Source of the DNA: Hymenopellis radicata
Taxonomy: Eukaryota; Basidiomycota; Agaricomycetes; Agaricales; Physalacriaceae
Direction of reading: 5' to 3'
DNA: 64,000 nucleotides
NCBI GenBank assembly: GCA_015501595.1
Contig: JADNRX010000099.1
Span: 1 to 64,000, forward strand
The position numbers and the translations under genes are program-made. This document shows positions 14,080-44,650 of the stretch, piece by piece. Position 1 is the first letter of the stretch. Each line of letters opens with the position of its first letter. The notes beneath the pieces were generated by a model that was given only the letters and a program-made list of their open reading frames with translations, did no database searches and had not been told where the DNA came from.

Positions 14080-14170
14080 GCATTAATGGGGTAGTGGTAA
14101 CCTGGGTCGTTGCCATCCATGAAAGAGTGCTTCTCTCGACCCGCCGGGGGTTCGATTCCCCCTTAATGCA
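14080..14170 (+). tRNA. tRNA-Gly(GCC), intron-containing
   Basis: Canonical cloverleaf: acceptor GCATTAA/TTAATGC, D arm GGGTAGTGGTAACCT, anticodon loop TTGCCA with a roughly 20-nt intron, anticodon stem GGTCG/CGACC, T arm GGGGGTTCGATTCCCCC and discriminator A. A T5 terminator lies at 14197-14201. A hAT-type MITE starts 76 nt beyond the 3' end. Confidence 0.93.
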
Positions 14171-14246
14171 TGTCACCCAGTGGTGGTCTCTATGTCTTTT
14201 TGTTCCTGGCTTGGCCGGCTTTATTCCTTTCCTACTGTGGCAACGA

Positions 14247-14568
14247 TAGGGTGGTGCAGTAAACCTCCGGGGGGTGTTAGTAACGGTATTGATACCGACC
14301 CCCCGGGAGGCCTTAGTTTTGAAACCGTTTCTAACGGTTTCGATACCAGCACGTGATTGTGACCACGTGATGTGGCGCAGCGGTGCGCCGCCCTCATCCC
14401 GCCACTCTCAGCTTCTCTGAAGGCCAGCGCGCCGTCACGTGAAGCGATCACGTGCCGGTATCGAAACCTACCTCCCAACCCCCGACAGTTTCAATACTGT
14501 ATCAATACCGTTAATAACCGCAGTAAACCTGAGGTGTATCAAAACCTAAGGTTTACTGCACCACCCTA
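14247..14568. mobile_element. hAT-type MITE, family A (322 bp)
   Basis: Inverted ends TAGGGTGGTGCAGTAAACC and GGTTTACTGCACCACCCTA are flanked by the exact 8-bp duplication GGCAACGA (14239-14246 and 14569-14576). An 8-bp duplication and a TAGGG terminus are hAT hallmarks. The interior holds CACGTGA palindromes and no gene. Related to the elements at 23029 and 35028. Confidence 0.92.
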
Positions 14569-14831
14569 GGCAACGATTTTCCTCTATCGTGCAGGATTCC
14601 TGTCATCTGCTTGATTGTATCTCTCCCCGTATCTTTTGCCTTGTTTCCAAAGTCTCTGATTGGCGGGGATTGAGAGCATGTTTTCTATTTCGTGGCGCGG
14701 GTTTTTCTAGTTTCCATATGAGATGTACTTTCGTTGATGCCTTCAATCTGGAGCGCGTCAAACAATTGAATAAATAAGTATGCACATATATATATATATA
14801 CCGGGGTCATGATGAGTGCGTCGTAAGTATG

Positions 14832-16527
14832 CTAAATCTTCAACTCCCTAAAGCCCCTGACATCGACCCTCCCAGCGCCATTGGTGGTCCACTCGCCCTC
14901 GCCGTCCATCTCCTCCTGCTTGACGCGCACGCTCACCTGGCTCGGATGCCTCCCCCCCGGTATACGTATGACGCCCGCACCCGTCCCTCTCGGGGGCGGA
15001 CTCTTGAGCTTGTACTGTTTCGGCAGACCGAGCTTCTTGCGCTGGCGTCGCGTCAACTTTGGCTGGGGCTCCGGCGAGGACGAGGAAGAGGATGAGGAAG
15101 AGGCGCGCCCGGGGGAGTCGGGGGAGAGGGACGGCGTCTCCTCTTCTTCCTCGCTCAACTCGCTCAGCTCGGCGTCGAGATCAAGACATGCCTCGCGCAG
15201 ACGTCGGCGTTTCCGCTCTTCGCCTTCTTCGCCCTCGACGAGGGTCCGTTTGGGGGAGCGCTCCCACCGCTCTTCGGGTACGGCGCGTGCAGCGGAGGAG
15301 GAACGCGGTGCGGGAGTAGCCCGTGAGGACGGCGTAGGTGATGGAGAAGATGGCGGGGTCGGTTTGGATGAAGACGGGATGGGTGTAAGAGGGGAGGATG
15401 AAGATGTAGATGAGGAGTACGGAGAAGATGATGAGGAGGAGGATGAGCTTGGGGCTAATGAGGAAGCCTGTGAGGATGGAGGGACGGACGATGGTGGGAC
15501 CGACGACTCGGGCTCTGGCAGCTTGAGCCTGATCTTTGTGATCCTCGGTTTCTTTGTCGACGCGGCTTTAACCTGCCGCTTTTTCGCATTCTTCGATACC
15601 CCTACAACACGCGTTAATAACAATCAGAACGACGAGAAAAGACATACCGTAATCAGGCGGCAAGTCCTCTCCAGGCGCAGGCCCAGGGGACTCGACAACA
15701 CAAGGCAGCCCCGCATGCGGCCCGCGCAGATTGCGGATGCTCGAAAAGTGCTCCCAGTCGTGGTACGCCACATACAGCGTCGGCCCGCTCTCCGCCTCCG
15801 TCTGTTCAAACAGCAACGGCCCGTCCTCTTCCTCCAGCTTCACTTTCACTTTCTCCTTCTCCTTCTTCTCCGCGCCCCTCCTTCTACTACTCCTCCTCGG
15901 CTCCGGATCCTCCTCTAAACCAGCCTCCTTCTCTTCCTCCTTGACGACAGGCTGGGGTGAGATGACATAGACGAGTCCCGGTTGTATGACCTTGACGTGC
16001 CGCTGCGTCAGATGCGCAAACGCCGATAGCTCCATGTGTCCGCCGTACGTCGCTGTGTCCTCTCCTCAGTCAAGGCTAATTTGAGACGACAAGACATACC
16101 ATTCTGCCTCATACCCCTCAAATACCCATCCATGCCGCCCTTGCCAAACTCGTCCACATCCACAAAGCCCTCATAGCGCTCCCGGTGCGCGTCGATCCAG
16201 TCGCAGATATCTTGCCGCACCTTTCCAACACAGAGTCTAACGGGGGGCGGGGCGCTAAACAGCACAACGGGCGCACCTTTCCATGCATCCCCTCGCTCCC
16301 GTAATACTGATCACTAAGCGCCCGGAACAGGCAATTCCCATCCCCCAGCGTCGGCGCCGCGTACAGCCCCAGCGACCGCAGCTGCGACGTCAGGAGCGGC
16401 GTCGAGGACAGCGGGTCCGTCACCAGCTAGCACAGCATCAGCGTACACATCTCCCACAATCCAGCGCCTAATAACGCACCTTGTTCCCGCTGCTCCGCGT
16501 AGACCTCTTTGGCCGCGTCTTTGCCAT
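14832..16527 (-). CDS. OTU-domain cysteine protease (deubiquitinase)
   Basis: Five exons (16527-16480, 16426-16277, 16220-16100, 16052-15648, 15601-14832) with introns of 46-56 nt encode 497 residues. The start MAKTRPKRSTRSSGNK is the only ATG in phase with the OTU exon. The OTU catalytic loop LGDGNCLFRALSDQYYG carries Asp and the nucleophile Cys. A central ATYGGHMELSAFAHL segment follows. The catalytic His lies in YHDWEHFSSIRNL near residue 225. Members remove ubiquitin from proteins. The last ~250 residues are a disordered Ser/Pro/Glu-rich tail with a basic stretch (KNAKKRQVKAASTKK). OTUD3-like fungal homologue is the best guess. It lies between two tRNA-Gly genes. Confidence 0.92.
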
Positions 16528-16816
16528 CGTCTGTATATGCCCCTATAAAGTCCTGCCGTAGTCCAAGCGCGATCCACCAGCCTGTCGTGCGAGATCTAAT
16601 CCGAATCGTCCTGATGGTCGTCCAAAGCCAACCACCACAATAGCCGCTACCCGGGGTCTCGGCATACAGACACGGGACCCCAGACACTGCCGCCTCCTGC
16701 GTCCGTTATTGTATGAAAAGTGCTAGACAGAATACACTGCCGCCCGTCAAAGTCGCGGACTGCAAGTGTCCAATGTCAAGGATGAAAAGCGCAAAAAAAA
16801 GACAACGGCTGCGGCA

Positions 16817-16907
16817 TGCATTAAGGGGGAATTGAACCCCCGGCGGGTTGAGACCAATGCTCCCAAGTCCATGGCAACGACCCAGGTTACCACTACCCCA
16901 TTAATGC
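16817..16907 (-). tRNA. tRNA-Gly(GCC), intron-containing, one stem mismatch
   Basis: Same structure as the other copies, with intact acceptor and T stems and anticodon GCC. The 3' half of the anticodon stem reads CAACC instead of CGACC, leaving a C-A mismatch, and the T loop is TTCAATT. A long T-run follows on the minus strand (AAAAAAAA on the plus strand near 16794). It may be slightly impaired. Confidence 0.82.
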
Positions 16908-17450
16908 ATGTCTCAGTGCAGGACCACTCAAATCTCAGTGTCTATTGTATACTCTAACCATCCAGGGGAGAATATTAACGTGCTGTTACTTTAGATGGTA
17001 TACTTACTCTCTACTGATTGCGAGTAAAGGAGATGCTACGTACACGAAACCCGAGCAATCGCAACAGATCGGAAGGTGAAACACGAGCAGGCGTACATGC
17101 CTTAATCTGGACAGGATCGCCCAAAGTGTTTGAACTGGGTCAATTGAGACAACCCGTATATGGAAGACACATAGAAGGCGAAACGACACCTCTCCAAATC
17201 AATAAATCACAGCAAACCTCCTCTCACCGCACCGATGCTGTATCCCGATCATCTCTGACCTGGCCCGTTCACCCGAGCAGGTTGCTCCTACCTGAACCTG
17301 CCCGATAACATTTGGAACAGCTGTAATCCGATCCCGACACCTAGGTGCCCCCGAGATGTAAAGGTACTTCGCCCCGAACTACTCAAACAAACGGCACACT
17401 TGTATTGACATGAAGAAGGGTGTAGATTCGTGTACCACGCAAGCATGTAT

Positions 17451-17506
17451 GCATTAATGGGGTAGTGGTAACCTGGGTCGTTGCCATTCCATCAGGACAG
17501 CGTGTT
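17451..17506 (+). tRNA. tRNA-Gly(GCC) 5' half, split by a retrotransposon
   Basis: GCATTAATGGGGTAGTGG through the anticodon loop TTGCCAT is identical to the intact copies. About 19 nt of intron follow and then the Ngaro-like element begins. The missing 3' half lies at 22927-22960 on the far side of the element. The gene was therefore interrupted inside its intron by a 5.4-kb insertion and cannot yield a normal tRNA. Confidence 0.9.
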
Positions 17507-17589
17507 CCAATCTGATGAACCTGTCGGGGGACACGGTAGCCAAAAAGCCGACCGCCACCGCGGCGGCCGCGAGTATGATTGATGTTCGT
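17507..17589 (-). repeat. Split direct repeat B2 (83 nt)
   Basis: Identical to 18033-18115: begins CCAATCTGATGAACCTG and ends GATTGATGTTCGT. It forms the 3' terminus of the element and abuts the tRNA-Gly intron. Confidence 0.95.
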
Positions 17590-17630
17590 CCGGTGGTACA
17601 AGTATGAGGATACAAATACAAACGGGCGGG

Positions 17631-18033
17631 CGACGAGAATACAATACTGGCGTGAAACAGTAAGAGACTGAGCCTAAGAGAAAAAATACAAGAACGCACC
17701 TGGCGGGGCACAGTAAGAGCTGAGGGATGCGAGACATCCTCGGCTGCATACCTAAGCTGCCCGCCAGGTATGGAAATCAACGATCGACCTAAGAGAAAGA
17801 TGTGGCGCTGAGAGCTGACCACGTCAAAGTCTCGCTGTAAGCGAGGATAACGTCCCGAAGGCAGAAGAGTCTCACCTGGTTCATTTTGCGACCCGGTGGG
17901 TAACGAACCATAAGTACAGCATTTTAGATCCGAAGGATCTGTAATGAGTACTGTTGGTGAGGATGCTGTGAGCATGGAAAGCGAAATGGCGTACCTCATA
18001 TTGGCCTTGAGTAATCAAAAGATTAATCTCGAC
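17631..18033 (-). repeat. Split direct repeat A2 (403 nt)
   Basis: Same length and sequence as 22520-22922: starts CGACGAGAATACAATACTGG and ends AGATTAATCTCGAC. It is joined directly to B1, giving the B1A2 junction expected of the circular form. Confidence 0.95.
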
Positions 18034-18115
18034 CAATCTGATGAACCTGTCGGGGGACACGGTAGCCAAAAAGCCGACCGCCACCGCGGCGGCCGCGAGT
18101 ATGATTGATGTTCGT
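18033..18115 (-). repeat. Split direct repeat B1 (83 nt)
   Basis: Internal copy of B2, lying just past the stop codon of the recombinase ORF. Confidence 0.95.
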
Positions 18116-18152
18116 AAAAATGGCTAATAAATGAGTCGGAAGATGATATCAA

Positions 18153-19142
18153 TCATTGTTGGGTTCGGTTGAAGAGTAGTGCCTGTAGGAGAACGGGGTT
18201 CTTCCTGATATAAATCTGGAAGGTGTTTGAAGCCCAGCGTCCCGCAGCCTGAATGAGGTGGGGGGCGCATCCGTCCTCGGCCATCGCTGTCGCTCCTCCA
18301 GCTCGCATCGATTGGCCAGCAAATTGTTCGTCTGGCTCAAGGCGTCGAAGACGCTTCATGAACCAAGTTCGCGTCGGGATCTCGTTCTTTGCCGTCACCC
18401 AAAGGAAAGGATTCAGGCGCGAAATCTTGTCACGCGAGACGATGTAGCGGCGAAAGACGGGAGCGGGATTGAAATCGCCACGACGGATGATCCGTATCTT
18501 GTTGCCCTCGAAGAACCGGTCTGCCTTGTGATATGGTAGGTCGAAGCCATACCCGTCATCGAACCACGTCACTGTGGACCGGCGCGAACACTTGCGCAGG
18601 TCACGGATCACGACGTTGTCCGGGAGCGACATTTCGCCAAGACGGAGTAAAGCCATGAAACCCGTTGTCAGCATCGCGGCGAAGAGCAAACTGTCGTGGG
18701 AAGCGTTCGGCGGAAGGTCATTGATGGTGGAAAGAATGTGCTGTCGGGCTAGAGGGAGTTTCCTCTGGATTGGAGTTCCGTACCTCTTCATGCAACCTGA
18801 CAAAGATCGCGCTACTAAGATTGATTTTCGGTTCGCGCTGACACCGGGGAAATATGGTTCGAGTTTATTGCAAATCCCGGTTAAGTAGGATGCGACGGAG
18901 CGTGGCTTGATGTTCGCGCACATGTAGACAACGTAGAATGATAGAGTGTCGGGTGTTGGTTCGACGGGGAAGTGATGCAGAGTGCAGAAGTTGAGATAAG
19001 AGTTCAAGTGGGAGTCGTAAGTCGCACTGGTGGAGATGTCGATGGCAAGTCCTAGTGCAATGGCTCTCTCATGGAGAAGCCGTTCGCGGGACCAAGGTTC
19101 CCTACGCGGTTGCCTCGGCGTCCGCAATTGGACGATCTTCAT
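18153..19142 (-). CDS. Tyrosine recombinase of the Ngaro-like element
   Basis: 329 residues. The C-terminal catalytic domain shows the first Arg in ALLRLGEMSLPD, the second Arg cluster SMRAGGATAMAEDG, the GRWAS motif, and the nucleophile Tyr in FQIYIRKNP. The N-terminal half resembles a SAM-like core-binding domain (YLTGICNKLEPYFPG). It would splice the circular cDNA into the chromosome. Its ATG overlaps the stop of the RT frame in ATGA (19142-19139), suggesting termination-reinitiation. All expected catalytic residues are present and there is no internal stop, so it may be active. Confidence 0.93.
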   Translation of the reverse strand: MKIVQLRTPRQPRREPWSRERLLHERAIALGLAIDISTSATYDSHLNSYLNFCTLHHFPVEPTPDTLSFYVVYMCANIKPRSVASYLTGICNKLEPYFPGVSANRKSILVARSLSGCMKRYGTPIQRKLPLARQHILSTINDLPPNASHDSLLFAAMLTTGFMALLRLGEMSLPDNVVIRDLRKCSRRSTVTWFDDGYGFDLPYHKADRFFEGNKIRIIRRGDFNPAPVFRRYIVSRDKISRLNPFLWVTAKNEIPTRTWFMKRLRRLEPDEQFAGQSMRAGGATAMAEDGCAPHLIQAAGRWASNTFQIYIRKNPVLLQALLFNRTQQ

Positions 19143-22100
19143 TTTTTCGTTGCCCCCAGCGTAAGTCGAGGGGGTTTAAATGTGTCGATGTATAAGTTCG
19201 GCACGAGAGACTGCGCGACGTCAAGGTAGTCGCGAGAGAGGGCGTCCGCTACAGTGTTCAGTTCGCCAGAGACGTGCACGACGCGTAGGTCAATATTTGA
19301 CCGAATACGAATATCGACCGCTGCTTTGAGGATAGGGTTGTAATCCGGTAGCGCGCGGAGGGTGTCAAAGATGTTGACTGTATTCGTGTTATCAGTAAAA
19401 ATAGTTAAGCGAGCTGGGCACTCAGGTGTGGCAAAGAAGGCGAGGTTCGACTGCTCGTACCAGACGAGCGCGCCGAGAACACAGAGCGCCTCCCAAAAGA
19501 AGATCTTGTCTCGCATCAAGTCACCCGCAACAGCGCACGTGAAACCGAGGTCCATCTCCGGTACCCAAAAACCCATGCCTGTCAGAGACGCGTCACAGAA
19601 GATCACCATGTTCGCCTCTGTGAAGGGATTCCAGTCAAGATTAGCGAAGAAGAACATGCCAGACGAAGCCTCAACATGCTCTTCAAACCATGCCAAATCT
19701 TGAACGATCGCCTTGTTAAGGTAAATTGGTGCATGCGAGCGTTCTTTTCCAGACATTTTGGCGTATATGTTCGATAACGCGGGCTTGAGTAGAGGATAGA
19801 CGTTCAGCGACCAGTTTATCCAACCGGTCAACTGCTCGAAGTCGTGGAGCGTCTGGCGTCGACGGGCAACGTGTGCGAATTGGTGTACGTGACGGATGAG
19901 GTCAGACTTTGAATCATCCGGAAGAGTCGCTGTCATAGCGTTCGGATCAACGAGGAAGCCGATGATGACGAGAACTTCTCCCCAAACTTGCTTCTTCGCT
20001 TTGTGGGGAATGCCGAGCCAATCCCACAGTCGAAGAAGTCGGACTTGATCCGTCGGATAGAATTGCTCGTACGGATCGTACCATGTCATGTCGTCGACTA
20101 AGCCTACGCTGTAGCAGTCGTCAACATAACAGCAAAGGAAGACCATGTTCAGAAGACATATCGCTATCCACACGACAAGACCCATCACCGACGCCCATGC
20201 TCTCGGAGAAGCGCGACTTCCGAAACAGGCACGCCAGTCCACGTAACGCAACCATGCGGTCTTGTCTGTCTTGCTTTCTCCCACCATGGACGTTACAACC
20301 TGCTTCAACTGCCACAACGGATGAACGGGTATCGTTCGAAACGCGCCCATCACGTCGGCCTTCCAGAGGAGTAATCTCTTGCCAGGATGCAAGCTGGAGA
20401 ACATCAAAAGTAACGGGATGAAAACGAGGAGAGAGTCCAAACGTGCGCCCTTCGTTTGAGACTTGTCCACCATGTTGTTTTGACAATATTCTCCCGCAGA
20501 TTGATTCGCGACGAGGCGGAGATCGTCTGAGTGAGGTTTGGGAACAGCAATATTGGGCGTGCTGTACATGCCTGGAAGTAGGTGTGGGCCGAACGCTGGT
20601 GAGTGTTGACCCTTGTCTACTTCTTCTATGCATTGCGCCGCAATAAACTGACTCTCCTCAGTTGACGGGATCTTTGCCCACGCGTTGTCCCACGTTTCTG
20701 GAAAATCGCTCGATGGATTCGTGTCGGCCCATGGCCATAACCCGATTTTCAACGTTCGAACGACGGAGGCGACGAACGCTCGATTCGGATGTATGGCTAG
20801 AGCGCTCGCGAAACGATCTATATTGATCGGAGTGGAAACGTGGAAAAGGTGAGGATTTTCATGGATAGTTTTCATAGCTACATGATGGTACTCTTTTTCA
20901 GGTGGGTGCAGAAGAGGTTCGTCTACTTCCGTGAACCACGCCGTTCGACTGCCTTGCGGGGCCGCGTTCCTCCATCCGAAACCCCTCAGGTAGCGTGGCA
21001 GGAAGGATCCGAAGCCACTCTCTTTTTCATCCTCCACACGACTCTCTTCAATGTCTTCTATTTCCTCATCTTCCCCTCCTCCACCTGCGAAATGACGCGC
21101 CGCGTGCCACAGGCTTGCCACGAAGGAAGAGCTAGTCGAGGACTCAGCTGCTTTTCGGTTTACACAAGGTGACGACATGCGGTCCTTCGCAGGAGCTGCA
21201 GACATGGCGTCTGGAACAAGCGCTACGGAAGCACTTCCCCTCGTTCCAGTTGTTGCAGATCTCTCGCTCTCGCTTCTTTGCCAATTTTGTTCTCGCAGAT
21301 TTTGCGCTCCCACCTGTGCCTCCAATATCATTGTACCGAACGCCGTCTCTGTCGAGGAAAGCTCGCTGGAGTTTTGTGATCTCGGGGGCGTTGTACTGAT
21401 TGAAGAGGATGGCTGGGTTCGACCCGATAACTTTGCGAGCGGCGATGTCGTACGCAATGACTCGGGCATGGGAATCTTCGACCTTGGACGTGAAGAGGTC
21501 GTCGATGTGCTCTCGCCAGGCTCGGAGTTCGTTCGTCCGGTAAGGGAAGATTGTCTCGACTGCCTTGACATACTTATCAAAGCATCTAAACCAGACGACT
21601 GACGAACTAACAGTCTTCTTCTCCGCGCTTCGTCCCAAGGCTTTGTGAAGTGCCGATTCGACCGTACTGACTGGAGTGGGGTCGAGGTCGAGTTTGGTGG
21701 AGAAGAAGAAAGCGTTGATCTCGTCGAAGTCGACGACTTGATCAAGGAGGATTTTCTTCCAGAGGGCTTCAGGGAAGACGGGGGCGAGTCCTGTGCGCAA
21801 AAGGTTGTGCAAGGTGTACTTGATGTCGCGTCTGTGATTTTCGACGGCGTCGCGGATTTTCTTGTGCTCAGCTGAGAGAACGACTTCTTGGACGACGGCG
21901 GCGGCGGCCCATCCGAAGAGATTGTCGTCTGGTACATCGCCATCGTTGGACTCGCGAGCGTGGTGGTGTTTGCGAGGAGGTTTGGACTTGGGTTTGTCAT
22001 CTCCTCCACTCTCATATTCTGAGAGCGAACTATTGGAATTGGGTGTCTCTGCCCGTTTGCGTTTAACTCCGGGTTTGACACTCTCTTCGTGGTCATCACC

Positions 22101-22471
22101 GTCCTCTTCCTCGTCGACGGTCTCTTCTCCTCCGGATACGTCGTCGTCATCTTTTCGCGACTTTCCCAACTCTTTCCCTCGTTGCTTGGCTCGCTCGAGA
22201 CGTCTAGCGTCGCTCTCGAGTTGCTCGAACCACGGCTTGAGCTCGTTACGTCCGCTGAAGTCGTACAGTCCGGCTTCGGAAACACCGCCGATGTAGGCAA
22301 CGACCGTGGTTTGAACGTCAACTTTGGACGCCCGTCCCTCACGGTATCGACTGACGATCTCTTCGAGGGTTTTCCGTACAGCTTCGCAATACTGCTCCTC
22401 CGTGAGTTCTGAGTCAGGGATGTCAGGGATAGAACAGTCTCCGGCTTTTCGCTTTTTGCTGCCTTCGGCAT
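19139..22471 (-). CDS. Reverse transcriptase / RNase H polyprotein
   Basis: The frame is open for 1110 codons. The reverse transcriptase has RLLLWKADVMGAFRTIPVH (first catalytic Asp) and the YVDD box in FLCCYVDDCYSVG. RNase H follows with VIFCDASLTGMGFW, LTIFTDNTNTVNI and VSGELNTVADALSRD. It copies the element RNA into cDNA. The first ~440 codons overlap the gag-like frame completely; they are Ser/Thr/Pro-rich with no known domain. The first ATG (22471) is 10 nt after the gag ATG (22481) in another frame, so leaky scanning could translate both. Alternatively translation starts later and the overlap is incidental. No protease domain was seen. Confidence 0.92.
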   Translation of the reverse strand: MPKAAKSEKPETVLSLTSLTQNSRRSSIAKLYGKPSKRSSVDTVRDGRPKLTFKPRSLPTSAVFPKPDCTTSADVTSSSRGSSNSRATLDVSSEPSNEGKSWESREKMTTTYPEEKRPSTRKRTVMTTKRVSNPELNANGQRHPIPIVRSQNMRVEEMTNPSPNLLANTTTLASPTMAMYQTTISSDGPPPPSSKKSFSQLSTRKSATPSKITDATSSTPCTTFCAQDSPPSSLKPSGRKSSLIKSSTSTRSTLSSSPPNSTSTPLQSVRSNRHFTKPWDEARRRRLLVRQSSGLDALISMSRQSRQSSLTGRTNSEPGESTSTTSSRPRSKIPMPESLRTTSPLAKLSGRTQPSSSISTTPPRSQNSSELSSTETAFGTMILEAQVGAQNLREQNWQRSESERSATTGTRGSASVALVPDAMSAAPAKDRMSSPCVNRKAAESSTSSSFVASLWHAARHFAGGGGEDEEIEDIEESRVEDEKESGFGSFLPRYLRGFGWRNAAPQGSRTAWFTEVDEPLLHPPEKEYHHVAMKTIHENPHLFHVSTPINIDRFASALAIHPNRAFVASVVRTLKIGLWPWADTNPSSDFPETWDNAWAKIPSTEESQFIAAQCIEEVDKGQHSPAFGPHLLPGMYSTPNIAVPKPHSDDLRLVANQSAGEYCQNNMVDKSQTKGARLDSLLVFIPLLLMFSSLHPGKRLLLWKADVMGAFRTIPVHPLWQLKQVVTSMVGESKTDKTAWLRYVDWRACFGSRASPRAWASVMGLVVWIAICLLNMVFLCCYVDDCYSVGLVDDMTWYDPYEQFYPTDQVRLLRLWDWLGIPHKAKKQVWGEVLVIIGFLVDPNAMTATLPDDSKSDLIRHVHQFAHVARRRQTLHDFEQLTGWINWSLNVYPLLKPALSNIYAKMSGKERSHAPIYLNKAIVQDLAWFEEHVEASSGMFFFANLDWNPFTEANMVIFCDASLTGMGFWVPEMDLGFTCAVAGDLMRDKIFFWEALCVLGALVWYEQSNLAFFATPECPARLTIFTDNTNTVNIFDTLRALPDYNPILKAAVDIRIRSNIDLRVVHVSGELNTVADALSRDYLDVAQSLVPNLYIDTFKPPRLTLGATKK

Positions 22472-22481
22472 GTCCGGGCAT
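21144..22481 (-). CDS. Gag-like protein with C-terminal Cys/His zinc motif
   Basis: 445 residues. An acidic/basic low-complexity region (EEEDGDDHEESVKPGVKRKR) lies near residues 110-180, followed by a helical middle. The C-terminus carries a CCCH/CCHC-like cluster: CNNWNEGKCFRSACSRRHVC then CSSCEGPHVVTLC. Such ORF1 products of DIRS/Ngaro elements are taken to be nucleocapsid-like RNA-binding proteins. It is the first ORF after the A1 repeat and overlaps the RT frame for about 1.3 kb. Confidence 0.88.
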   Translation of the reverse strand: MPGHAEGSKKRKAGDCSIPDIPDSELTEEQYCEAVRKTLEEIVSRYREGRASKVDVQTTVVAYIGGVSEAGLYDFSGRNELKPWFEQLESDARRLERAKQRGKELGKSRKDDDDVSGGEETVDEEEDGDDHEESVKPGVKRKRAETPNSNSSLSEYESGGDDKPKSKPPRKHHHARESNDGDVPDDNLFGWAAAAVVQEVVLSAEHKKIRDAVENHRRDIKYTLHNLLRTGLAPVFPEALWKKILLDQVVDFDEINAFFFSTKLDLDPTPVSTVESALHKALGRSAEKKTVSSSVVWFRCFDKYVKAVETIFPYRTNELRAWREHIDDLFTSKVEDSHARVIAYDIAARKVIGSNPAILFNQYNAPEITKLQRAFLDRDGVRYNDIGGTGGSAKSARTKLAKKREREICNNWNEGKCFRSACSRRHVCSSCEGPHVVTLCKPKSS

Positions 22482-22519
22482 AATCGTATGAGTCGTTAGA
22501 TGGAAATTTATTTCGCAAT

Positions 22520-22922
22520 CGACGAGAATACAATACTGGCGTGAAACAGTAAGAGACTGAGCCTAAGAGAAAAAATACAAGAACGCACCTGGCGGGGCAC
22601 AGTAAGAGCTGAGGGATGCGAGACATCCTCGGCTGCATACCTAAGCTGCCCGCCAGGTATGGAAATCAACGATCGACCTAAGAGAAAGATGTGGCGCTGA
22701 GAGCTGACCACGTCAAAGTCTCGCTGTAAGCGAGGATAACGTCCCGAAGGCAGAAGAGTCTCACCTGGTTCATTTTGCGACCCGGTGGGTAACGAACCAT
22801 AAGTACAGCATTTTAGATCCGAAGGATCTGTAATGAGTACTGTTGGTGAGGATGCTGTGAGCATGGAAAGCGAAATGGCGTACCTCATATTGGCCTTGAG
22901 TAATCAAAAGATTAATCTCGAC
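22520..22922 (-). repeat. Split direct repeat A1 (403 nt)
   Basis: Element 5' terminus. Same sequence as A2. It ends at CTCGAC, where the 3' half of the split tRNA-Gly gene begins four nt later. Confidence 0.95.
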
Positions 22923-22926
22923 TTAT

Positions 22927-22960
22927 CGACCCGCCGGGGGTTCGATTCCCCCTTAATGCA
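22927..22960 (+). tRNA. tRNA-Gly(GCC) 3' half, split by a retrotransposon
   Basis: CGACCCGCCGGGGGTTCG and the remaining T-arm and acceptor strand are identical to the intact copies and end in A73. It completes the 5' half at 17451. A T5 run lies at 23012-23016, and a hAT MITE starts 68 nt past the end. Confidence 0.9.
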
Positions 22961-23028: not shown

Positions 23029-23360
23029 TAGGGTGGCGCAGTAAACCTCCGGGGGGTGTTAGTAACGGTATTGATACCGACCCCCCGCGAGGCCCTGGTT
23101 TTGAAACCGTTAGTAACGGTTTCGATACCGGCACGTGTTTTGAACACGTGATGTGGCGCAGCGGCTCGCCGCCCTCATCCCGCCCTTGTCCCGCCACTCT
23201 CAGCTTCTCTAAGCGCCAGCACGCCGTCACGTGAAGTGATCACGTGCCGGTATCAAAACCTACCTCCCGACCCCCCACAGTTTCAATACCGTATCGATAC
23301 TGTTAGTAACCGCAGTAAACCCAAGGTGTATCAAAACCAAGGGTTTACTTCACCACCCTA
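23029..23360. mobile_element. hAT-type MITE, family A (332 bp)
   Basis: Ends TAGGGTGGCGCAGTAAACC and GGGTTTACTTCACCACCCTA. Flanking 8-mers are GCTCAGCG (23021-23028) and GCTCAGTG (23361-23368), a target duplication with one later change. The interior closely matches the element at 14247. Non-coding. Confidence 0.9.
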
Positions 23361-34787: not shown

Positions 34788-35304
34788 TTGTGGATTTCTA
34801 CGAACAAAGTGTGGTTGTCCGCAGTTTTATTCTTCAAGAATGCCAATCAGTGCGGTGGTCAACGCTTGACTGGCATGATCAGTCTACGTAGGCTATGGAG
34901 CCTTCAATCAAAGGTTAGTCTGTGGCTTTGCGCCCGGAATTGGTAATCAGCAATAAAAAATGGTGGAGAAGACACTGTCCCGGTGAAATCAGAGAAACGG
35001 GTTTGGACCACCCCGATTCCCGAAAACTAGGGTGGTGCAGTAAACCCTAGGTTTTGATACACCTCGGGTTTACTGCGGTTACTAACGGTATTGATACGGT
35101 ATTGAAACCTTGGCCGAGGAATGGGTAGGTTTTGATACCGACACGTGATCATTTCACGTGACGGCGCGCTGAGCTGAGAGTGGCGGGACAAAGGCGGGAT
35201 GAGGCGGCGGAGCGGTGCGCCACATCACGTGGTAGAAGCACGTGCCGGTATCGAAACCGTTACTAACGGTTTCAAAACCAGGGCCTCCTTGGGGGGGTCA
35301 GTAT

Positions 35305-35958
35305 TAGGGTAGTGGAAACAACCTAGGTTAGAGTACCAAGAGGTTGTTTCCCAGTAAATTACCGGTTATTTACCGGTTTGTAACCTAAGTCTGTTGGAGG
35401 TAGGTTATTTACCTGCACATGACATACTGTACCATTCCGACCGTAGGTTCGCGGCGTGTGACGCGTTATGCCGCGAACTTACACGGAACAAGTTCGTTTT
35501 CAGGCACATGGCCCGATTTGGCAGTCCCGCTGCAGGCGGGCCCGAAAAATTGCCGTTTTGAGCGATTTGACCCTGAAATCTAGCCCCGTTATGCGTTATC
35601 CTAAGCCGTAAGTTAGGTTCGCACAGCCGCGTGACGCGTTATGCGAATATCCGGTCGGAACGGTACAGTATCCACGTGATGTGTGGCGCACGGAAAAAGG
35701 TAGTATGCACTATATTCAGAGGCAAGCAAAGTTACTATTGCCACTAAAATCTATCTGACCCTGATGGGACCAAGGAAAGTGTGACATCTGGAGGGGAAAG
35801 ACTGAAAACAGTTGACGGCTGCTGTCCTGCGGAGACATCACGTGAAAATATCACGTGCAGGTAAATAACCGTTTTTAACCGGTAAATAACCTGGACCTCT
35901 GGGAGGGTAGGTAAATAACGGTTATTTACCACCCCCCGAGGTTATTTCCACGACCCTA
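35305..35958. mobile_element. hAT-type MITE, family B (654 bp), nested in family A
   Basis: Ends TAGGGTAGTGGAAACAACC and GGTTATTTCCACGACCCTA with exact 8-bp duplication GTCAGTAT on both sides. Related to the element at 44080. It contains a further TA-flanked MITE (35427-35668). Confidence 0.93.
35427..35668. mobile_element. 242-bp TA-flanked MITE, third nesting level
   Basis: CTGTACCATTCCGACCG and CGGTCGGAACGGTACAG are inverted ends with TA on both sides. It is absent at this position in the other family B copy, so it inserted after family B. Confidence 0.88.
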
Positions 35959-36049
35959 GTCAGTATCAATACCGTTACTAACACCCCCCGGAGGTTTACT
36001 GCACCACCCTACCGAAAACCACAAAAAGAGATGCCGTCGTCCTATTGTA

Positions 36050-36140
36050 TGCATTAAGGGGGAATCGAACCCCCGGCGGGTCGAAGAGCACGCATTCTTT
36101 TATATGGCAACGACCCAGGTTACCACTACCCCATTAATGC
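36050..36140 (-). tRNA. tRNA-Gly(GCC), intron-containing
   Basis: All stems intact, anticodon GCC, intron about 20 nt. A T5 terminator on the minus strand corresponds to AAAAA at 36023-36027, only 11 bp from the hAT MITE end. Confidence 0.93.
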
Positions 36141-38218: not shown

Positions 38219-38309
38219 GCATTAATGGGGTAGTGGTAACCTGGGTCGTTGCCATATGGTTGCCGTGGTCTCTGTCGACCCGCCGGGGGTTCGATTCCCC
38301 CTTAATGCA
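38219..38309 (+). tRNA. tRNA-Gly(GCC), intron-containing
   Basis: Same cloverleaf as the other copies, with intact acceptor, anticodon and T stems and an intron of about 20 nt. A T5 run follows about 22 nt downstream. Confidence 0.93.
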
Positions 38310-38423
38310 ATCTAACATGTCAGCATGGCCTTTTTCTTTCCCTCCACAAGGACCTCAACAATTTTGCATATGCTGCTCTTACCACCTGCCCACCCGGAAT
38401 CAGCAACAATACTTTTTACTTCC

Positions 38424-38461
38424 TATGGCAACGACCCAGGTTACCACTACCCCATTAATGC
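38424..38461 (-). pseudogene. tRNA-Gly(GCC) 5' half only
   Basis: The minus strand reads the exact 5' half of the tRNA-Gly gene, from GCATTAATGGGG to the anticodon loop GTTGCCAT, then runs into unrelated sequence; no T arm or 3' acceptor strand follows. It faces the intact copy at 38219 in inverted orientation, 115 bp away. Confidence 0.85.
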
Positions 38462-38793
38462 ATACCACCGCTTCCGTGTATGCTATCCAGATTGCTCACT
38501 AATCACACCGAGCAAGTAGGAATATCCACCAGCACCTCCTCATACTCCAGATATGTCCTTATTTTCTTTCTGTGTCCCGGCGCTAGTATCATTTGTCGTC
38601 GCCCACCCTCACTACTTGTATGTGTACCACTAACTCTACGAGTCCAATCATACACGCGGTTGTTTCCTTAGGTGGGCTACCCCCGTCGGACAGGTTCTTC
38701 AGCTTGCAGACCACGTTCTCTCCTTTCCTCCTGCTATGACATTAGCTGCCCAAAAAGTTGTTCAATTCTACTAGCACCTCAAACACAAGTCCT

Positions 38794-40819
38794 CTAACCG
38801 TGAACCGGATACAACCGGCTTCGTATCCTCTCCTCAGTCGTCAGATCCACAAGCCACATGGACGATATCAAGATGGCGATGTACGTTCCGCCTCCATCTC
38901 CATCTCTATCTCTCTGAGTCTCTAGGAGGCGATCCCACATCTCGTCGGTGTATTCTATGACGGACGACTCCTCCATCGCCGCGCGGAATGCGTCGAGGGG
39001 TCGGACGGATATGCGCGGCCGGCTGGAGACGTCGCCCCATTCGGAGGCGTAGTCCAGTTCGATGACAAGTGGGCCCGTGCTGTCGTCTCTGATCAACTTG
39101 GGGAGCGATATAAGAAGGACGAGGCAACGTACGTGATTGTTTGCAAGTTGTCGACGACTTTGGTGTGTTCTCGGAGATCGTCTTCGACCATGGCGTAGAT
39201 CAGCGCCATGTCCAGCGGGGAGGGCGGGAGGTGTAGAGCGTGCGGTGGTGCTAGGTGGTGGTTGACTCAATCCCCAGATCGACGCTTGGAAGAGGGAAGG
39301 AACAACGTACACATCCGCGCCCGATCCAAGACGTGACATTGCGCCCTATGTCCATTGCCCCAATGTGTCTTTTGACACGGCCGCGAGCAGTACACGGTAA
39401 ACAGACACCCGCTACATCGCCTCGGTTTCGCAGATGTCGAAGCTTCCGTCGACGGGCACTGTTCGTCATAAGTAAACTAAAGCCGCCCAAACGAATGAAA
39501 CCTCACCTCAGGATTAACACAGACGCATTTGCTGACCCTATCACGAGCCTCGTTCTCCTTCACTTGCGTCTCCACCGCGGCCTTCAACTGCTCGTACTGC
39601 CTCTTGACCTCCGAGTCGCCCTCAGCACCCTCCACCACCATGGCACGCCTTACAGCCCTCCTACACGCCCTCAACACACTTCTATAAATCAAGAACCCCT
39701 CCAAGTGGCCTAGACACCCCGCAATCATCCTGCTCAAATGATACCGGTCCTCCCGCTCATCAAACAGCGCCTCGTCGCTCCCCACCACGCTATCCACGCG
39801 GAGCAGCGTATCCACTAACCGGCTCTCGAGCGCACGGACTACATAGCGCGGCGCCATGCGCGAAAAGACTGAAAGTTCCTGTATTAGGAGACACATGCAC
39901 GAGCCCACCCTTTGTGAGCGGTGGTATAACCCCTTGGCTGCATGCCGCGCAGCGAGGCATAGGACGTCCAGGACGCCTTCGAGAGCCAGCGCGCGGCGGA
40001 CGGCGGGTATGCAGCTGCGGCAGTAGAATATCGTGCTCAGCGACAGTCTCAAAGCCGATAACGACAGCGTCTTCTCCGCCCCGAGCGCAGAGGAGTCTGC
40101 GGACAACGCGCGGACCAGAGCGCGCGCGACGTCGGACGGCTGCGAGGAGAGGAGCGCGCGCATGGAGTGTGCGAGGTCGGGGTGGCCGGGGACGAGCTTG
40201 GCTTCGGCGATGAGCGCGGTGAGGACGGCGGTTTGGAAGGACTGGCGCGCGGCGGATGAGGCTGGGAGGCGGAGGAATGTGTGCATGGTGAGCGGGAGGA
40301 GGGCGTCTTCTTTGCGGAAGGCGTTCCGCAGGAGGGGGTCCCGGAGGAGGGAGGGGATGATGTGCCCGACTTCGCGGAGGAGGAGGTCGTTTGTGGGGGT
40401 GTGGGTGAAGAGCGCGATCCAGCTTGTTATCGTAGGACAGAGCGCTTCCAGGGTGCCATTTGGAAACACTGGTTGTTGTTGTTGGGATTTATCCAATCCG
40501 TGTGCAAGCATCTTCAGCGCGTATCGCGCGTTCATCGCCACTCCCCCATCCATATCTCCTCCGCCATCATTTACCTGCGCGAGATGCCGTGGAGAGAGAT
40601 GCGCGTATATAACCGGCAGAACGTCGTCCAGTCCGAGAAAGTGGTTGTACGAGAACACGAGATGGAGCGTGGATGTTGCGTTGGGATCGCCGTTCAGAGC
40701 CTGCGTCTACAAAGCGTGAGAACGGCAATGGAAGGAAGGAAGCGAAGAAGACAGACTTTTAAGAGGTTGAATCGGGCAGGGGATATGGGCGAGGGGGGAT
40801 GGCTTCGACTAGTAGACAT
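38794..40819 (-). CDS. MYND zinc-finger protein
   Basis: Exons 40819-40757, 40706-39507, 39458-39311, 39250-about 39129 and 39096-38794 encode about 610 residues. The N-terminus MSTSRSHPPSPISPARFN is followed by a long helical, armadillo-like region. The MYND finger spans an intron: KCVCVNPE|CPSTEAST, then CSGCLFTVYCSRPCQKTHW and HRAQC, supplying the conserved Cys/His ligands. MYND fingers bind proline-rich peptides. The C-terminal part (MALIYAMVEDDLREHTKVV, EWGDVSSRPRISVRPLDAF) is typical of Agaricomycete MYND proteins of unknown role. The last intron would be only 32 nt as placed, so that junction is uncertain; the rest is in frame. Confidence 0.85.
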
Positions 40820-40947
40820 CCTTACTTGAGCTAAAGCGGCGGTGACGTGCACCTACGGGATCAAATGACAACTGCAGCCATTGCCATCCTCTCTGATCTA
40901 TATATCCCCCTCACATCGCTCTAAGCCTCTTTGGGAACAGGAACCGC

Positions 40948-41653
40948 ACTGCCCAGGGTCCCGCGGCGTTTAGCCCAGAGTAAACATGAACGTAGCCACG
41001 GACGGAGATCTCAGGGTTCGCTGATAATTGATTTGGGTGGACATGCAAGTGAATTGAGTGTATCGCCACGGACTCACTAGGAAGCCGGAATGCCATTGTT
41101 CTCCGGCAACTTGAAGGATCCGCGAAGCTTGTTCATACTCGTCCGCGGTATCAGGTTTCGTATTCGTAGACGGCGGGAGCTCATCTAGGGAGAAGGCATG
41201 GAACCTGAGAAAAACACAGATATAGAGAATTTTGAATGGCAAAGAAAGAGGAATAGCGCACCAATTGTCATGAGGGCGACGCGTTTATATATGGAACAGC
41301 GTAGTTGATTCCCGTCGGTGCCACCACCACCACGCCCCCGGCTTCTAAAGCTGGTGATGTTCCTACAAGTAGATGTGTATCCAAAGCTTCTATGTTTAGA
41401 AAGAGAGTGGGTATCTCGCTCCGCGATGATACAACCGTACACACCGAGGTCAAGAAACGCAGAGGACTCGACTGCCGCAGGAGAACGAACTCGATGGAAA
41501 TAGGCTTACGGTAAATAAGTATTAGGCGAAGCGATTGTATAACCCAGTCGATTCATCTTTCGGCGCGGGAGGGCATCAACGAAGAAGTGGTAAGAATAGC
41601 ATATTCTGCTCGTCGTAGTCCTTGGCCAAGGCGCGGCACTCGGACCGACTGCC
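40948..41653 (+). repeat. Direct duplication, copy 1
   Basis: Shares blocks with 42055-42632: ACTGCCCAG(G)GTCCCGCGG, GTTTAGCCCAGAGTAA, GGAGATCTCAGGGT and TATGTTTAGAAAGAGAGT, then CTCGCTCCGCGATGATACAA. Similar minus-strand reading frames exist in both, but no protein family is recognised. Confidence 0.75.
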
Positions 41654-41733
41654 GTGGTGGCGCTATACTCGCATTGGAGATGCTAGAGCAAGAAGTAAAA
41701 TAAAAAGACCTCTACTATGACACAGGACCTACA

Positions 41734-41825
41734 TGCATTAAGGGGGAATCGAACCCCCGGCGGGTCGAGGAGAGGAGACTGCATGCCAACAGCAACGATG
41801 GCAACTACCGCTACCCCATTGATGC
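41734..41825 (-). pseudogene. Degenerate tRNA-Gly
   Basis: The 3' half is identical to intact tRNA-Gly(GCC). The 5' half is changed: acceptor GCATCAA, and the D/anticodon region reads GTAGCGGTAGTTGCCATCGTTGCTG. The anticodon stem no longer pairs well and the loop would read GCT. It is probably non-functional, although a T5 run is still present downstream. Confidence 0.75.
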
Positions 41826-42054
41826 ACTGTGGCGTCTTATACAGATGCTATCCAGACTGCTCACCCAACACTCGTTCGTTATCTATAAACACCTTGGCAT
41901 TATTGTGTCGTAACTTTAATAGCGAGTTACTAAGTGTGACGTACGTTAGGTTATACCAGAAAGACGCCCAACATAGAAGACATCACATCCTTCCACCCTC
42001 CTTCTCACAATACTAACCTTGACACCCCTCCTTCTCTGCTCAAACAACTTACAC

Positions 42055-42632
42055 ACTGCCCAGGTCCCGCGGCGTTTAGCCCAGAGTAACTTCATGAATG
42101 TATGTGGCCACGGGCGGAGATCTCAGGGTGCGCTGATTTGCCATTGTTCCCCGGCAACTTGAACAGGCGGTATGTTTCGTGTAGTGTGTAGGAGGAGCTC
42201 GTCTCTACTCTCGACGATGGACTAGTCAAGTCACCTGTCAGGTTTTGTCGTCCATCGTCGGAGACCGAGCCATGAACTTACGACGCAGATATATGTAACA
42301 CAATGGGTGCGTAGTTGATCCCCGACACTACCACCCCGCCCCCGGCGTCTCAAGGAACATGCTCCTCTAATGGCGAGTAGACGTTTCTATGTTTAGAAAG
42401 AGAGTTGGTATCTCGCTCCGCGATGATACAACCGTACACACCGAGGTCAAGATACGCAGAGGACAGCCCGAGGATAGCGAACTCGATGGAGACAGGCTTA
42501 CGGTAAGTAAGTTTGGGGCCAAGCGATTGTATAACCGAGTTAATTCGCCTTTCGGAGCGAGAGTAGACGTGGTCAAAGTAGCATATTCAAATCGGCTTGT
42601 TCGTCGTAAGCGTGGTACTCGAACCGGCTGCC
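42055..42632 (+). repeat. Direct duplication, copy 2
   Basis: See 40948-41653. Internal indels differ between the copies. The pair flanks the degenerate tRNA-Gly. Confidence 0.75.
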
Positions 42633-42811
42633 AGTGCTAAGAGGTGATAGATTTTGAGAACAAGATACGCATTAGAACATATGTCGGTAGCAGACCCGCT
42701 CGGTAGAAAGATAAATGCGACCAAAAACCCGGTGACAACATAACCTGATTAGATACAAATACAATTGCAGATCAAACATCATAAGCTCGTCAAACCGGTC
42801 TTCATACCTCG

Positions 42812-43705
42812 TTATTCCAAAACACCCCACACCCCAAGCCCCGCAAAAAACACACCCAATCCCAACACCAACCCCACATACACCCTAACCTGCGGGGCCC
42901 TCAAGTTCCCTATCAATGCCTGAACAGCAAAGCACCCTAGCGTCACGCCCAAGCTGTAGCCAAAGGTCATACGCGGGTACCACGTCGCGCTCAGGAGAAG
43001 CGTAGTTCCCAACGACAACAGCACCATCGTTACTCTCTGCAGCGCGAGGATGAACAGCGGGATATCGATAAACGCGACCCCAGCCAGCGCGGCTTCCATC
43101 TCCTCGCGTTTGTGGAGGGTGTTTAAGAGGGACAGGTTCGTGCTTATAACCGACGCTTCCTCATCCAAGTCATCTGCGTCTTCGTCGTCCAGAAGGTGAG
43201 GCGGCTGGGGCTCGTATAGCCGCATAGACCGGTACGCCCCGCGGATGCTCACAAAGGCTTCGACGAGCGCCCATGTCGTGCCGACGACCCACGTCCTGAC
43301 AAACACCGCTTCATCCCTCTTCGACGGCATCGGAAAGTCCGCGTGGTGCGCTAGGCGCAGGAGATAGGGCGCACTGAGAAGCAGCAGCGTGTGGAGCGCG
43401 GCGCGCAGCAGGGCGGTGACTCGCCACCATGGGGACCAGTCGTCGACGTGCTTCTGCAGGGTGTAGGAGAGCGCCCACAGCGCGAGAGGCGTGAGCACGT
43501 CGTCCGCCCGTATGACTCCTCCTGATGTAGGAGTGGCGAGAAGCCAGAGGGGTATAGTGCTGAGAGCGAACGCGGCGACGGTGGTGAGCAGGACGGAGAG
43601 GGTGTATAGGCGCACGTGTCGGACGTAGTCGAATTTTATGAGATCGTCGTCGTCAAAGTCCATGTCCTCTGGAAGGTGGGAGAGAATGGGCTCGTCGCCG
43701 TTCAT
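42812..43705 (-). CDS. Multi-pass membrane protein, unknown function
   Basis: Single exon of 297 residues beginning MNGDEPILSHLPEDMDFDDD. An in-frame upstream ATG-proximal extension to 43789 looks like leader sequence (basic, Ser/Gln-rich), so the later ATG with the acidic start was chosen. Hydrophobic segments lie near VLLTTVAAFALSTIPLWLLA, LTPLALWALSYTL, LHTLLLLSAPYLL, GVAFIDIPLFILALQRV, TMVLLSLGTTLLLSATW, YSLGVTLGCFAVQALIG and VGLVLGLGVFFAGLGVWGVL. An acidic cytosolic loop (DDEDADDLDEEAS) divides the two halves. Likely an integral membrane protein of the endomembrane system; no family recognised. Confidence 0.8.
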   Translation of the reverse strand: MNGDEPILSHLPEDMDFDDDDLIKFDYVRHVRLYTLSVLLTTVAAFALSTIPLWLLATPTSGGVIRADDVLTPLALWALSYTLQKHVDDWSPWWRVTALLRAALHTLLLLSAPYLLRLAHHADFPMPSKRDEAVFVRTWVVGTTWALVEAFVSIRGAYRSMRLYEPQPPHLLDDEDADDLDEEASVISTNLSLLNTLHKREEMEAALAGVAFIDIPLFILALQRVTMVLLSLGTTLLLSATWYPRMTFGYSLGVTLGCFAVQALIGNLRAPQVRVYVGLVLGLGVFFAGLGVWGVLE

Positions 43706-43928
43706 GATGGACGGACCCAAAATGCCTGAATGACGACATCGATCGGGTTGGCGATTTATTTGACGTCTTGATGGCGCGACGAATTGCAAGATCTTGTCCA
43801 GGCTCAGTCCAGGCTCGCTGTCTCTGAATCAGTTAGCTGAAGTGTGGCAGCCGTTCCTCATCTCAGAAGGAACAACAATGCAATGTATCTTTACAAGAGA
43901 GCAGACAGCGTAAAGGTTCAGGATGCAT

Positions 43929-44018
43929 GCATTAATGGGGTAGTGGTAACCTGGGTCGTTGCCATGAATGGTAGCTCGTCCTGTCGACCCGCCGGGGGTT
44001 CGATTCCCCCTTAATGCA
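43929..44018 (+). tRNA. tRNA-Gly(GCC), intron-containing
   Basis: Intact cloverleaf identical to other copies outside the intron. A T7 terminator lies at 44036-44042 and a hAT family B MITE starts 61 nt past the 3' end. Confidence 0.93.
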
Positions 44019-44079
44019 ATCGTTCCCGTTGTCTGTTTTTTTGGCCACTGGCGGTACATGTTTTTACGTGTATTCACGG

Positions 44080-44650
44080 TAGGGTCGTGGAAATAACCTC
44101 GGGGGTGGTAAATAACCGTTATTTACCTACCCTCCCGGAGGTCCAGGTTATTTACCGGTTAAAAACGGTTATTTACCTGCACGTGACACTTTCACGTGAC
44201 GTCTCCGCGGGAGCAAGTGCCATGCAGCAACCAAGGCAGCAACCGTCAAGTGTTTTCAGTCTTTCCCCTCCGGATGTCACACTGCCATGGTCTCATCAGA
44301 GTCAGATACATTTCAATGGCAATAGTAAATTTTCCTGCCTCTGAATATAGTGCATACTACTGTACTATTCCGACCGTAAGTTCGCAATTTTTTAAATTTT
44401 TCAACATCCTGAACCCCGATAAGCAATCGGAGGCGTTTGGCGGGGTCCGATAAGCAAATTGACCCCTCCGTGACGCGTTATGCGAATTAACGGTCAGAAT
44501 AGTACAGTAGTGCCACACATCACGTGGATATGTCACGTGCAGGTAAATAACCTACCTCCAACAGCCTTAGGTTACAAACCGGTAAATAACCGGTAATTTA
44601 CCGGGAAACAACCTCTTGGTACTGTAACCTAGGTTGTTTCCACTACCCTA
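44080..44650. mobile_element. hAT-type MITE, family B (571 bp)
   Basis: Ends TAGGGTCGTGGAAATAACC and GGTTGTTTCCACTACCCTA with exact 8-bp duplication ATTCACGG (44072-44079 and 44651-44658). Inverse orientation relative to the copy at 35305. Contains a TA-flanked MITE at 44360-44507. Confidence 0.93.
44360..44507. mobile_element. 148-bp TA-flanked MITE nested in family B
   Basis: CTGTACTATTCCGACCG and CGGTCAGAATAGTACAG ends with TA flanks. Its insertion point differs from that of the MITE inside the other family B copy, so the two are independent events. Confidence 0.85.

Follow-up and report, generated by a model that had tools for sequence, protein, structure and literature searches.

Short, probably hAT-like transposons mostly lie just past tRNA genes, with their left ends facing the gene, in the mushroom Hymenopellis radicata

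Targeting of genes transcribed by RNA polymerase III (Pol III) arose several times in retrotransposons. As described in a review of these systems, the Dictyostelium non-LTR element TRE3 inserts 40-150 bp 3' of tRNA genes in the same transcription orientation, Skipper-2 inserts 8-23 bp 3' of tRNA genes in D. discoideum, and yeast Ty1 and Ty3 target Pol III genes via the Pol III machinery (PMC5911963). The review places downstream insertion of retrotransposons only in dictyostelid genomes and gives it as absent in S. cerevisiae (PMC5911963). Among DNA transposons, Dada elements are described as favouring tRNA, U6, U1 and 5S genes; they recognise sequences within genes, where they integrate at fixed sequences and leave duplications of 6-7 bp (PMC3706591, PMC8869645).

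The fungal elements analysed here, which fall into families A and B, share with TRE3 and Skipper-2 an insertion window 3' of tRNA genes. However, the latter two are retrotransposons, whereas A and B elements are 240-984 bp long (39 of the 54 measured A copies span 319-343 bp), have inverted repeats and 8-bp target site duplications (TSDs), and show none of the hallmarks of retrotransposons (reverse transcriptase, LTR, poly(A)). Ty1 and Ty3 are LTR retrotransposons that insert upstream of genes, whereas A and B elements insert downstream. Unlike Dada, A and B elements stay clear of the gene itself, by 12-145 nt at 71 sites, and have variable 8-bp duplications and TAGGG ends. In their duplications and TAGGG-type termini they resemble Ac-like hAT transposons. 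As far as we found, targeting behind tRNA genes is known for some retrotransposons and is not reported for hAT-like DNA elements; a literature search, mostly of openly accessible papers, returned no report of Pol III targeting by hAT elements or MITEs.

The window, a stretch of 64,000 nucleotides (contig C1395), belongs to the draft assembly of 75.5 Mb that we searched. It contains four pairs of a tRNA-Gly gene and a MITE, separated by 76, 68, 38 and 61 nt as a sequence-only reading of this DNA had stated. An intron-bearing tRNA-Gly(GCC) gene (14080-14170, plus strand; ARAGORN, and RF00005 at 48.5 bits) is followed at 76 nt by the left end of a family A element (14247-14568, plus strand) with an exact TSD, GGCAACGA, at 14239-14246 and 14569-14576. 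What had been read as a gene half (22925-22960, plus strand) is exon 2 of a tRNA-Gly gene split by a 5.4-kb element, exon 1 being at 17451-17487; the family A element 68 nt 3' of it (23029-23360, plus strand) has TSD copies GCTCAGCG and GCTCAGTG with one mismatch. On the minus strand, the tRNA-Gly gene at 36050-36140 (Gly GCC in ARAGORN's eukaryotic intron mode, Gln with the bacterial code) precedes a family A element (35028-36011) whose left end, 36011, lies 38 nt 3' of the gene; its exact TSD, GTTTTCGG, is the CCGAAAAC of the earlier reading on the opposite strand. The fourth pair consists of a tRNA-Gly gene with an intron (43929-44018, plus strand; ARAGORN) and, 61 nt 3' of it, a family B element (44080-44650, plus strand) with the exact TSD ATTCACGG. 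In each pair a run of at least four T separates the gene from the element, in line with the earlier placement of the MITEs beyond the Pol III T-run.

Two extra elements are present in the window, one nested and one serial. A family B element (35305-35958, minus strand; TSD ATACTGAC) sits inside the family A element of the third pair, with its left end, 35958, 91 nt 3' of the tRNA-Gly gene at 36050-36140. A family C element (TAGGGTGGGGAAGTAAACC...; 44672-45093, plus strand as judged from its tRNA-facing end) with the exact TSD GTCGCTCT lies 653 nt from the tRNA of the fourth pair, a distance that arithmetically becomes 74 nt after subtraction of the B element and its duplication. The terminal sequence TAGGGTGG occurs 8 times in the window versus 1.15 times expected. 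tRNA-Gly genes are locally clustered on this contig, and also on C696 and C462.

Distance and orientation of left ends across the genome

We analysed 109 distinct left ends (80 of family A and 29 of family B, including ends split apart by later insertions inside one array), drawn from 153 A (100 of them listed) and 44 B left ends with at most one mismatch. A tRNA gene precedes 87 of them, 76 within 178 nt (75 within 145 nt) and 11 farther away; the others lie behind U6 (2), U5 snRNA (1), a repeat (6) or no recognised target (13). For 71 of the 109 left ends, ARAGORN places a same-strand tRNA no more than 150 nt upstream. These 71 sites belong to 67 different tRNA genes that represent 16 isotypes, with a gap of 12-145 nt (median 62 nt, middle half 47-80 nt) and a run of at least four T between gene and insertion in 69 of them. 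The association with tRNA genes claimed for both families from the window is borne out genome-wide among the copies sampled, with elements of families C and D seen in addition; its restriction to tRNA-Gly was too narrow, as tRNA genes in general are involved. If we drop the seven left ends that overlap the window or a locus retrieved by way of tRNA-Gly, an ARAGORN tRNA is found within 150 nt of 65 of the remaining 102, which divide into 80 tRNA-linked ends, 2 behind U6, 1 behind U5, 6 behind the repeat and 13 with no target.

Counted from the side of the tRNA genes, 12 of 63 score-ranked tRNAs are followed on their own strand, at no more than 150 nt, by one of 144 listed left ends; chance would give 0.012, even with all 197 left ends included. 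This genome-wide comparison with random placement, which the sequence-only reading had proposed, speaks strongly against randomness for the sampled copies. Two further tRNAs of the 63 lie near an A terminus that may be either a left or a right end; such termini, on C444, C470, C188 and C515, were omitted from the 12 of 63 and from a count of 6 of 23, which become 14 and 7 with them. Over the 1.5 kb on their 5' side, the 63 tRNAs have no listed left end.

A and B elements turn their left end towards the tRNA gene, with one exception, the reversed element L012. No opposite-strand tRNA was found within 150 nt upstream of the left ends examined, and a tRNA follows within 1.4 kb after the left end at 2 of 87 loci. 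In the 11 far cases, where 405-815 nt separate the left end from the tRNA, the intervening DNA contains another TAGGG element with an 8-bp duplication, and the left end of this other element is 37-75 nt from the tRNA. Where a single element intervenes (10 cases), subtracting it arithmetically returns the earlier element to 56-131 nt. The gap does not shrink with the length of the tRNA gene (slope 0.45 ± 0.42, n=71); anchoring at the start site would give a slope of -1. The lower limit of the distance could in part stem from selection against loss of the terminator.

Superfamily and candidate sources

An 8-bp duplication with at most one mismatch was recovered for 62 elements (63 duplication rows less one composite pair, L064). 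All 62 duplications are different and 58 are exact. The script considered 8-bp duplications only, and the other left ends gave no match or had their right end outside the DNA examined. The terminal inverted repeats of hAT elements start with YAGGG, and those of the elements (TAGGGTGG, TAGGGTCG, TAGGGTAG) are of the TAGGG type, as are the TAGGGATG ends of hAT genes in the same genome. hAT duplications also have a weak preference for nTnnnnAn. After symmetrisation, the preferred T (position 2) and A (position 7) are each present in 45 of 124; without it, the p values of these two positions are 0.02 and 0.26, respectively, and position 4 deviates most. Duplications of 8 bp are described as usual for hAT (PMC12730594). 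Families A and B likely belong to this superfamily. The duplications and termini agree with the earlier "hAT-type" label; the assignment is only likely because it rests on these two features and our search found no transposase gene with these termini.

A PF05699 scan of the genome gave 70 matches, and no autonomous copy with A or B ends was seen in the 3' flanks of 20 of these 70 or at the left ends of five hAT copies that form one family. Four of the five, which are full-length, have, by eye, left ends of the type TAGTGA.. and no ARAGORN tRNA in the flanks examined (runs in bacterial mode and runs with introns allowed), and the fifth, on C1295, has the same left end by eye; these five are therefore not the partner. 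For a decayed PF05699 copy on C906, which ends in ..GGTAGGAGCCCTA, a search with part of its protein gave no more than one weak second match. KDZ domains are abundant in the genome (166 matches). Within that group, Kyakuja is described as having 7-bp duplications and CA..TG ends without inverted repeats, and Zisupton as having 8-bp duplications (PMC12730594). We rejected Kyakuja as a source, as its ends and other features do not fit the A and B elements; Zisupton is still a candidate.

Guided integration and rival explanations

The most likely explanation, which we hold with considerable confidence on the pattern of insertions, is that families A and B are non-autonomous, hAT-like cut-and-paste transposons that are guided, during integration, to genes transcribed by Pol III. 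A transposase acting in trans would bind the element ends, and the complex would dock 3' of an active Pol III gene through B box-bound TFIIIC, through Pol III at the terminator or, by way of a loop, through TFIIIB. Insertion would then usually occur past the T-run terminator, about 10-145 nt beyond the gene, with the left end facing the gene and without a strong sequence requirement at the cut site. Newer insertions would fall between the gene and an older element, giving rise to serial arrays behind one tRNA.

If tRNA-MITE units had instead been duplicated jointly, a few insertions would have been multiplied, and the local clusters of tRNA-Gly genes on C1395, C696 and C462 would be in keeping with that. 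However, the duplications abut the element directly and leave the tRNA outside, all 62 of them differ, and 67 distinct tRNA genes of 16 isotypes are involved, so that copying of whole units is contradicted in the sampled set, the insertions are independent as had been proposed for the four pairs, and joint duplication is very improbable. The elements could also insert anywhere and survive mainly at safe sites that are free of genes, the commonest being tRNA 3' flanks. The surroundings of tRNA genes are tolerant sites in other genomes, and selection, too, would yield insertions that start past the T-run. Yet such retention predicts neither the polarity, nor the one-sidedness of the listed ends, nor the window of 10-145 nt. 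Furthermore, in a limited comparison by coordinates only, none of 38 ends of a comparable TAGGG-ended hAT family with copies of about 650 bp, TAGGGATNNNNACCGTACCG, comes within 1 kb of any of 97 known tRNAs (the 63 score-ranked tRNAs plus 34 of the 41 rows of another tRNA listing), though a tRNA-Arg gene outside the 97 (L031) has one such end, C630:54863, 465 nt away on its 5' side. We regard retention as unlikely. About equally unlikely is a transposase that reads a motif of tRNA 3' flanks, such as the T-run, rather than the transcription machinery. The near-constant T-run between gene and element and the weak preference within the duplications would suit it, but the insertion points spread over more than 100 nt, the targets comprise many tRNAs as well as U6, and T-runs should be common elsewhere in any genome.

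Guided integration of the A and B elements would imply, given the fixed polarity, that the transposase-DNA complex is asymmetric and that the Pol III apparatus holds it in one orientation. Probably a lineage of cut-and-paste DNA transposons has acquired integration that is guided by this machinery, fixed in polarity and placed just past the terminators of Pol III genes. If so, targeting of the Ty and TRE kind would be open to other DDE transposases, and tethered cut-and-paste integration of fixed polarity could be studied in these elements as a simple system.

Insertions behind U6, U5 and a repeat

Elements lie behind 2 of 6 U6 loci. On C358 a family A left end follows U6 at 52 nt, and on C553 a family D element, the flanks of which show no matching duplication by reading, follows at 27 nt and is itself followed by an A element. 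A U5 snRNA on C335, a type of gene normally transcribed by Pol II, has one family B element 66 nt past its Rfam end. The repeat that precedes six left ends (loci L027, L029, L058, L081 and L082), one copy of which is at C1295:2656, has no Rfam match, and its RNA fold is not unusual (z 0.38). If integration is guided and fixed in polarity, the elements may mark Pol III-bound sites, including this unannotated repeat and possibly U5, and would be a natural record of where Pol III occupies the genome of a mushroom. Counting against guided targeting are the U5 and repeat sites, the reversed L012, the C553 family D element without a duplication and the 13 of 109 left ends without a recognised target (L012, L037, L044, L052, L053, L064 at 3559, L065, L074, L076, L080, L083, L087 and L098). 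For ten of these 13, an Rfam search with E up to 10 found neither a tRNA nor another Pol III RNA; this search is not sensitive, because it also missed the tRNA-Glu of L049 and L088, which BLAST shows. The other three (L083, L012 and L064) were covered in separate searches. An exact B-box motif is present upstream of L080 and L087, both of which we kept out of the tRNA-linked count.

Placement of the elements behind tRNA genes

An earlier, sequence-only reading had placed four hAT-type MITEs just 3' of tRNA-Gly genes in the window (tRNA-Gly end/MITE left end 14170/14247, 22960/23029, 36050/36011 and 44018/44080), and the window sequence bears out all four pairs as described. At 23029, the tRNA-Gly exon lies 67-68 nt upstream of the left end, i.e. 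the end facing the tRNA gene. The window has two more such elements, a nested one of family B (35305-35958) and one of family C (44672-45093) with the exact duplication GTCGCTCT.

We searched the genome (75.5 Mb in 1405 contigs; the window is G000:C1395:1-64000) for the family A termini, which gave 366 matches against 4 for the reversed-pattern control, and for the family A left end, which gave 153 against 0. For family B, 44 left ends were found when at most one mismatch was allowed. Flanks were examined for 109 distinct left ends (80 A and 29 B), and in 71 of them ARAGORN finds a same-strand tRNA gene at most 150 nt upstream, at a median distance of 62 nt (interquartile range 47-80, extremes 12 and 145). 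These sites are spread over 67 distinct tRNA genes of 16 isotypes, most frequently Thr (10), Ser (9), Gly (8) and Arg (8). BLAST or Rfam shows a tRNA upstream of four more left ends, at 67 nt (locus L049), 96 nt (L054), 178 nt (L088) and about 45 nt (L095).

A comparison with random placement, for which the earlier reading had called, was made from the tRNA side. For this, 63 of 2877 candidate tRNAs were scored with Rfam and ranked. Of these 63, 12 have a left end from the list of 144 A/B ends at no more than 150 nt on the 3' side and on the same strand, against a chance expectation of 0.012 even if all 197 left ends are counted. None of the 144 was found on the 5' side of the same 63 tRNAs up to 1.5 kb, and a tRNA follows the left end within 1.4 kb at only 2 of 87 loci. 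A listed left end accompanies six of 34 full-length tRNA-Gly matches (from 41 matches). For a control family, also hAT and TAGGG-ended, a comparison of coordinates shows none of 38 ends closer than 1 kb to any of 97 known tRNAs; one of its ends is 465 nt 5' of a tRNA-Arg (L031) outside the 97. Four hAT copies of full length, whose left ends read TAGTGA.., have no ARAGORN tRNA in the flanks examined. A non-autonomous family of about 650 bp carries TAGGGATG ends, which also occur on hAT genes at contigs C467 and C147. KDZ transposase domains are abundant genome-wide (166 matches).

Serial arrays, other targets and left ends without a recognised target

Eleven further tRNA-linked left ends are 405-815 nt distant from the tRNA. 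In every case a further TAGGG element bearing an 8-bp duplication occupies the gap, and its own left end is 37-75 nt from the tRNA; at L046, the left end at 2019 additionally comes after that of a B element. In the ten cases other than L046 only one element intervenes, and subtracting it together with one duplication restores distances of 56, 72, 108, 87, 98, 74, 79, 70, 67 and 131 nt. The gap-filling elements include members of family C (L041) and family D (L057, L078), and hence at least four families have the same habit.

Two of six U6 loci are also hit. On C358 an A left end is 52 nt behind U6, and on C553 a D element, for which a matching duplication was looked for and none found, is 27 nt behind U6 and is followed by an A element at 523 nt. 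The Rfam match of these U6 genes is extended to 161 nt (L025, C553) and 134 nt (L064, C358), which is consistent with an intron in U6 (GTGAGTAT ... CTAATCC, as read by eye). Family B also has a left end behind a U5 snRNA gene (L084:69-184, C335), at 66 nt from where the Rfam match stops. U5 is usually transcribed by Pol II.

Six left ends sit behind a repeat without an Rfam match (L058:1241-1480 = C1295:2656-2895), which has 27 matches in the genome search. In 6 of 23 compared copies, a listed A or B left end is at most 250 nt away on the same strand, and a seventh copy is near an A terminus, left or right. In five aligned copies, TCTTTTG is conserved upstream of the insertion. We suspect that this repeat is a putative unannotated Pol III-bound element; neither Rfam nor RNA folding lends support to that identity.

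The flanks examined contain no recognised target for 13 of the 109 left ends (L012, L037, L044, L052, L053, L064 at 3559, L065, L074, L076, L080, L083, L087 and L098). The A element of L012, which lies behind a B element and a tRNA-Thr, is itself inverted and is the only reversed element seen. The left end at L064:3559 is within the U6 array of C358, yet 2.1 kb further along; a B-box motif precedes the left ends of L080 and L087, though they are counted here; and L083 is directly beyond another A element, its 250-bp flank being too short for judging a target.

Geometry and possible mechanism

A run of at least four T separates tRNA and element at 69 of the 71 ARAGORN sites, and at the two sites lacking it the gene is only 12 and 17 nt away. 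Longer tRNA genes do not have shorter insertion distances (slope 0.45 ± 0.42, n = 71), which argues against measuring from the start site and speaks for the B box, the 3' end or the terminator as the reference point.

Joint duplication of tRNA and MITE would produce the same association, but it is contradicted by the 62 different duplications of 62 elements, whose base preferences are weak at most, and by the isotypes. It is thus excluded for the sampled set, and the insertions are independent, as the sequence-only reading had held. Retention alone, as another account of the tRNA association, leaves the polarity, the one-sidedness and the narrow window unaccounted for and does not explain it. 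In the targeting that we propose instead, the Pol III apparatus of active genes would hold the transposase-end complex on their 3' side, with TFIIIC, TFIIIB or terminating Pol III as candidate partners between which the sequence does not discriminate. The fixed polarity implies that such a complex distinguishes the left end from the right; the two ends of family B are unlike (TAGGGTCGTGG vs TAGGGTAGTGG).

The closest behaviour is that of Dictyostelium TRE3, which inserts 40-150 bp past tRNA genes and in their orientation (PMC5911963). Among DNA transposons, Dada comes nearest; it inserts within the RNA genes, at fixed sequences and with 6-7 bp duplications (PMC3706591, PMC8869645). Families A and B likely belong to hAT, as judged by 8-bp duplications and TAGGG ends rather than by a transposase; Zisupton likewise produces 8-bp duplications (PMC12730594). 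A full-text literature search, which returned mostly titles and the starts of abstracts, gave no report of Pol III-gene targeting by hAT elements or MITEs.

Other features of the window

One tRNA-Gly gene of the window (17451-22960) is split by a 5.4-kb element, which separates exon 1 (17451-17487) from exon 2 (from about 22925). Its direct repeats, 403 bp each and identical, are at 17631-18033 and 22520-22922. Two long ORFs of the element, on the minus strand, look recombinase- and RT-like by eye and have no Pfam match. By match coordinates, C696 has two further pairs of tRNA-Gly halves about 5.7 kb apart (165293/171041 and 181966/176199). Together with the split gene, these suggest that a DIRS-like element inserts repeatedly at the intron site of tRNA-Gly. 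Two solitary tRNA-Gly halves, one 5' and one 3', are also present on the minus strand (38425-38461 and 41734-41769), in non-collinear order. The phospholipase C gene of the window is 97% identical, over 94% of the query, to a protein of Hymenopellis radicata. Finally, the window contains a 3.3-kb direct duplication (6265-9540 and 49475-52733, 92.6% identical), each copy of which has a 405-aa ORF.
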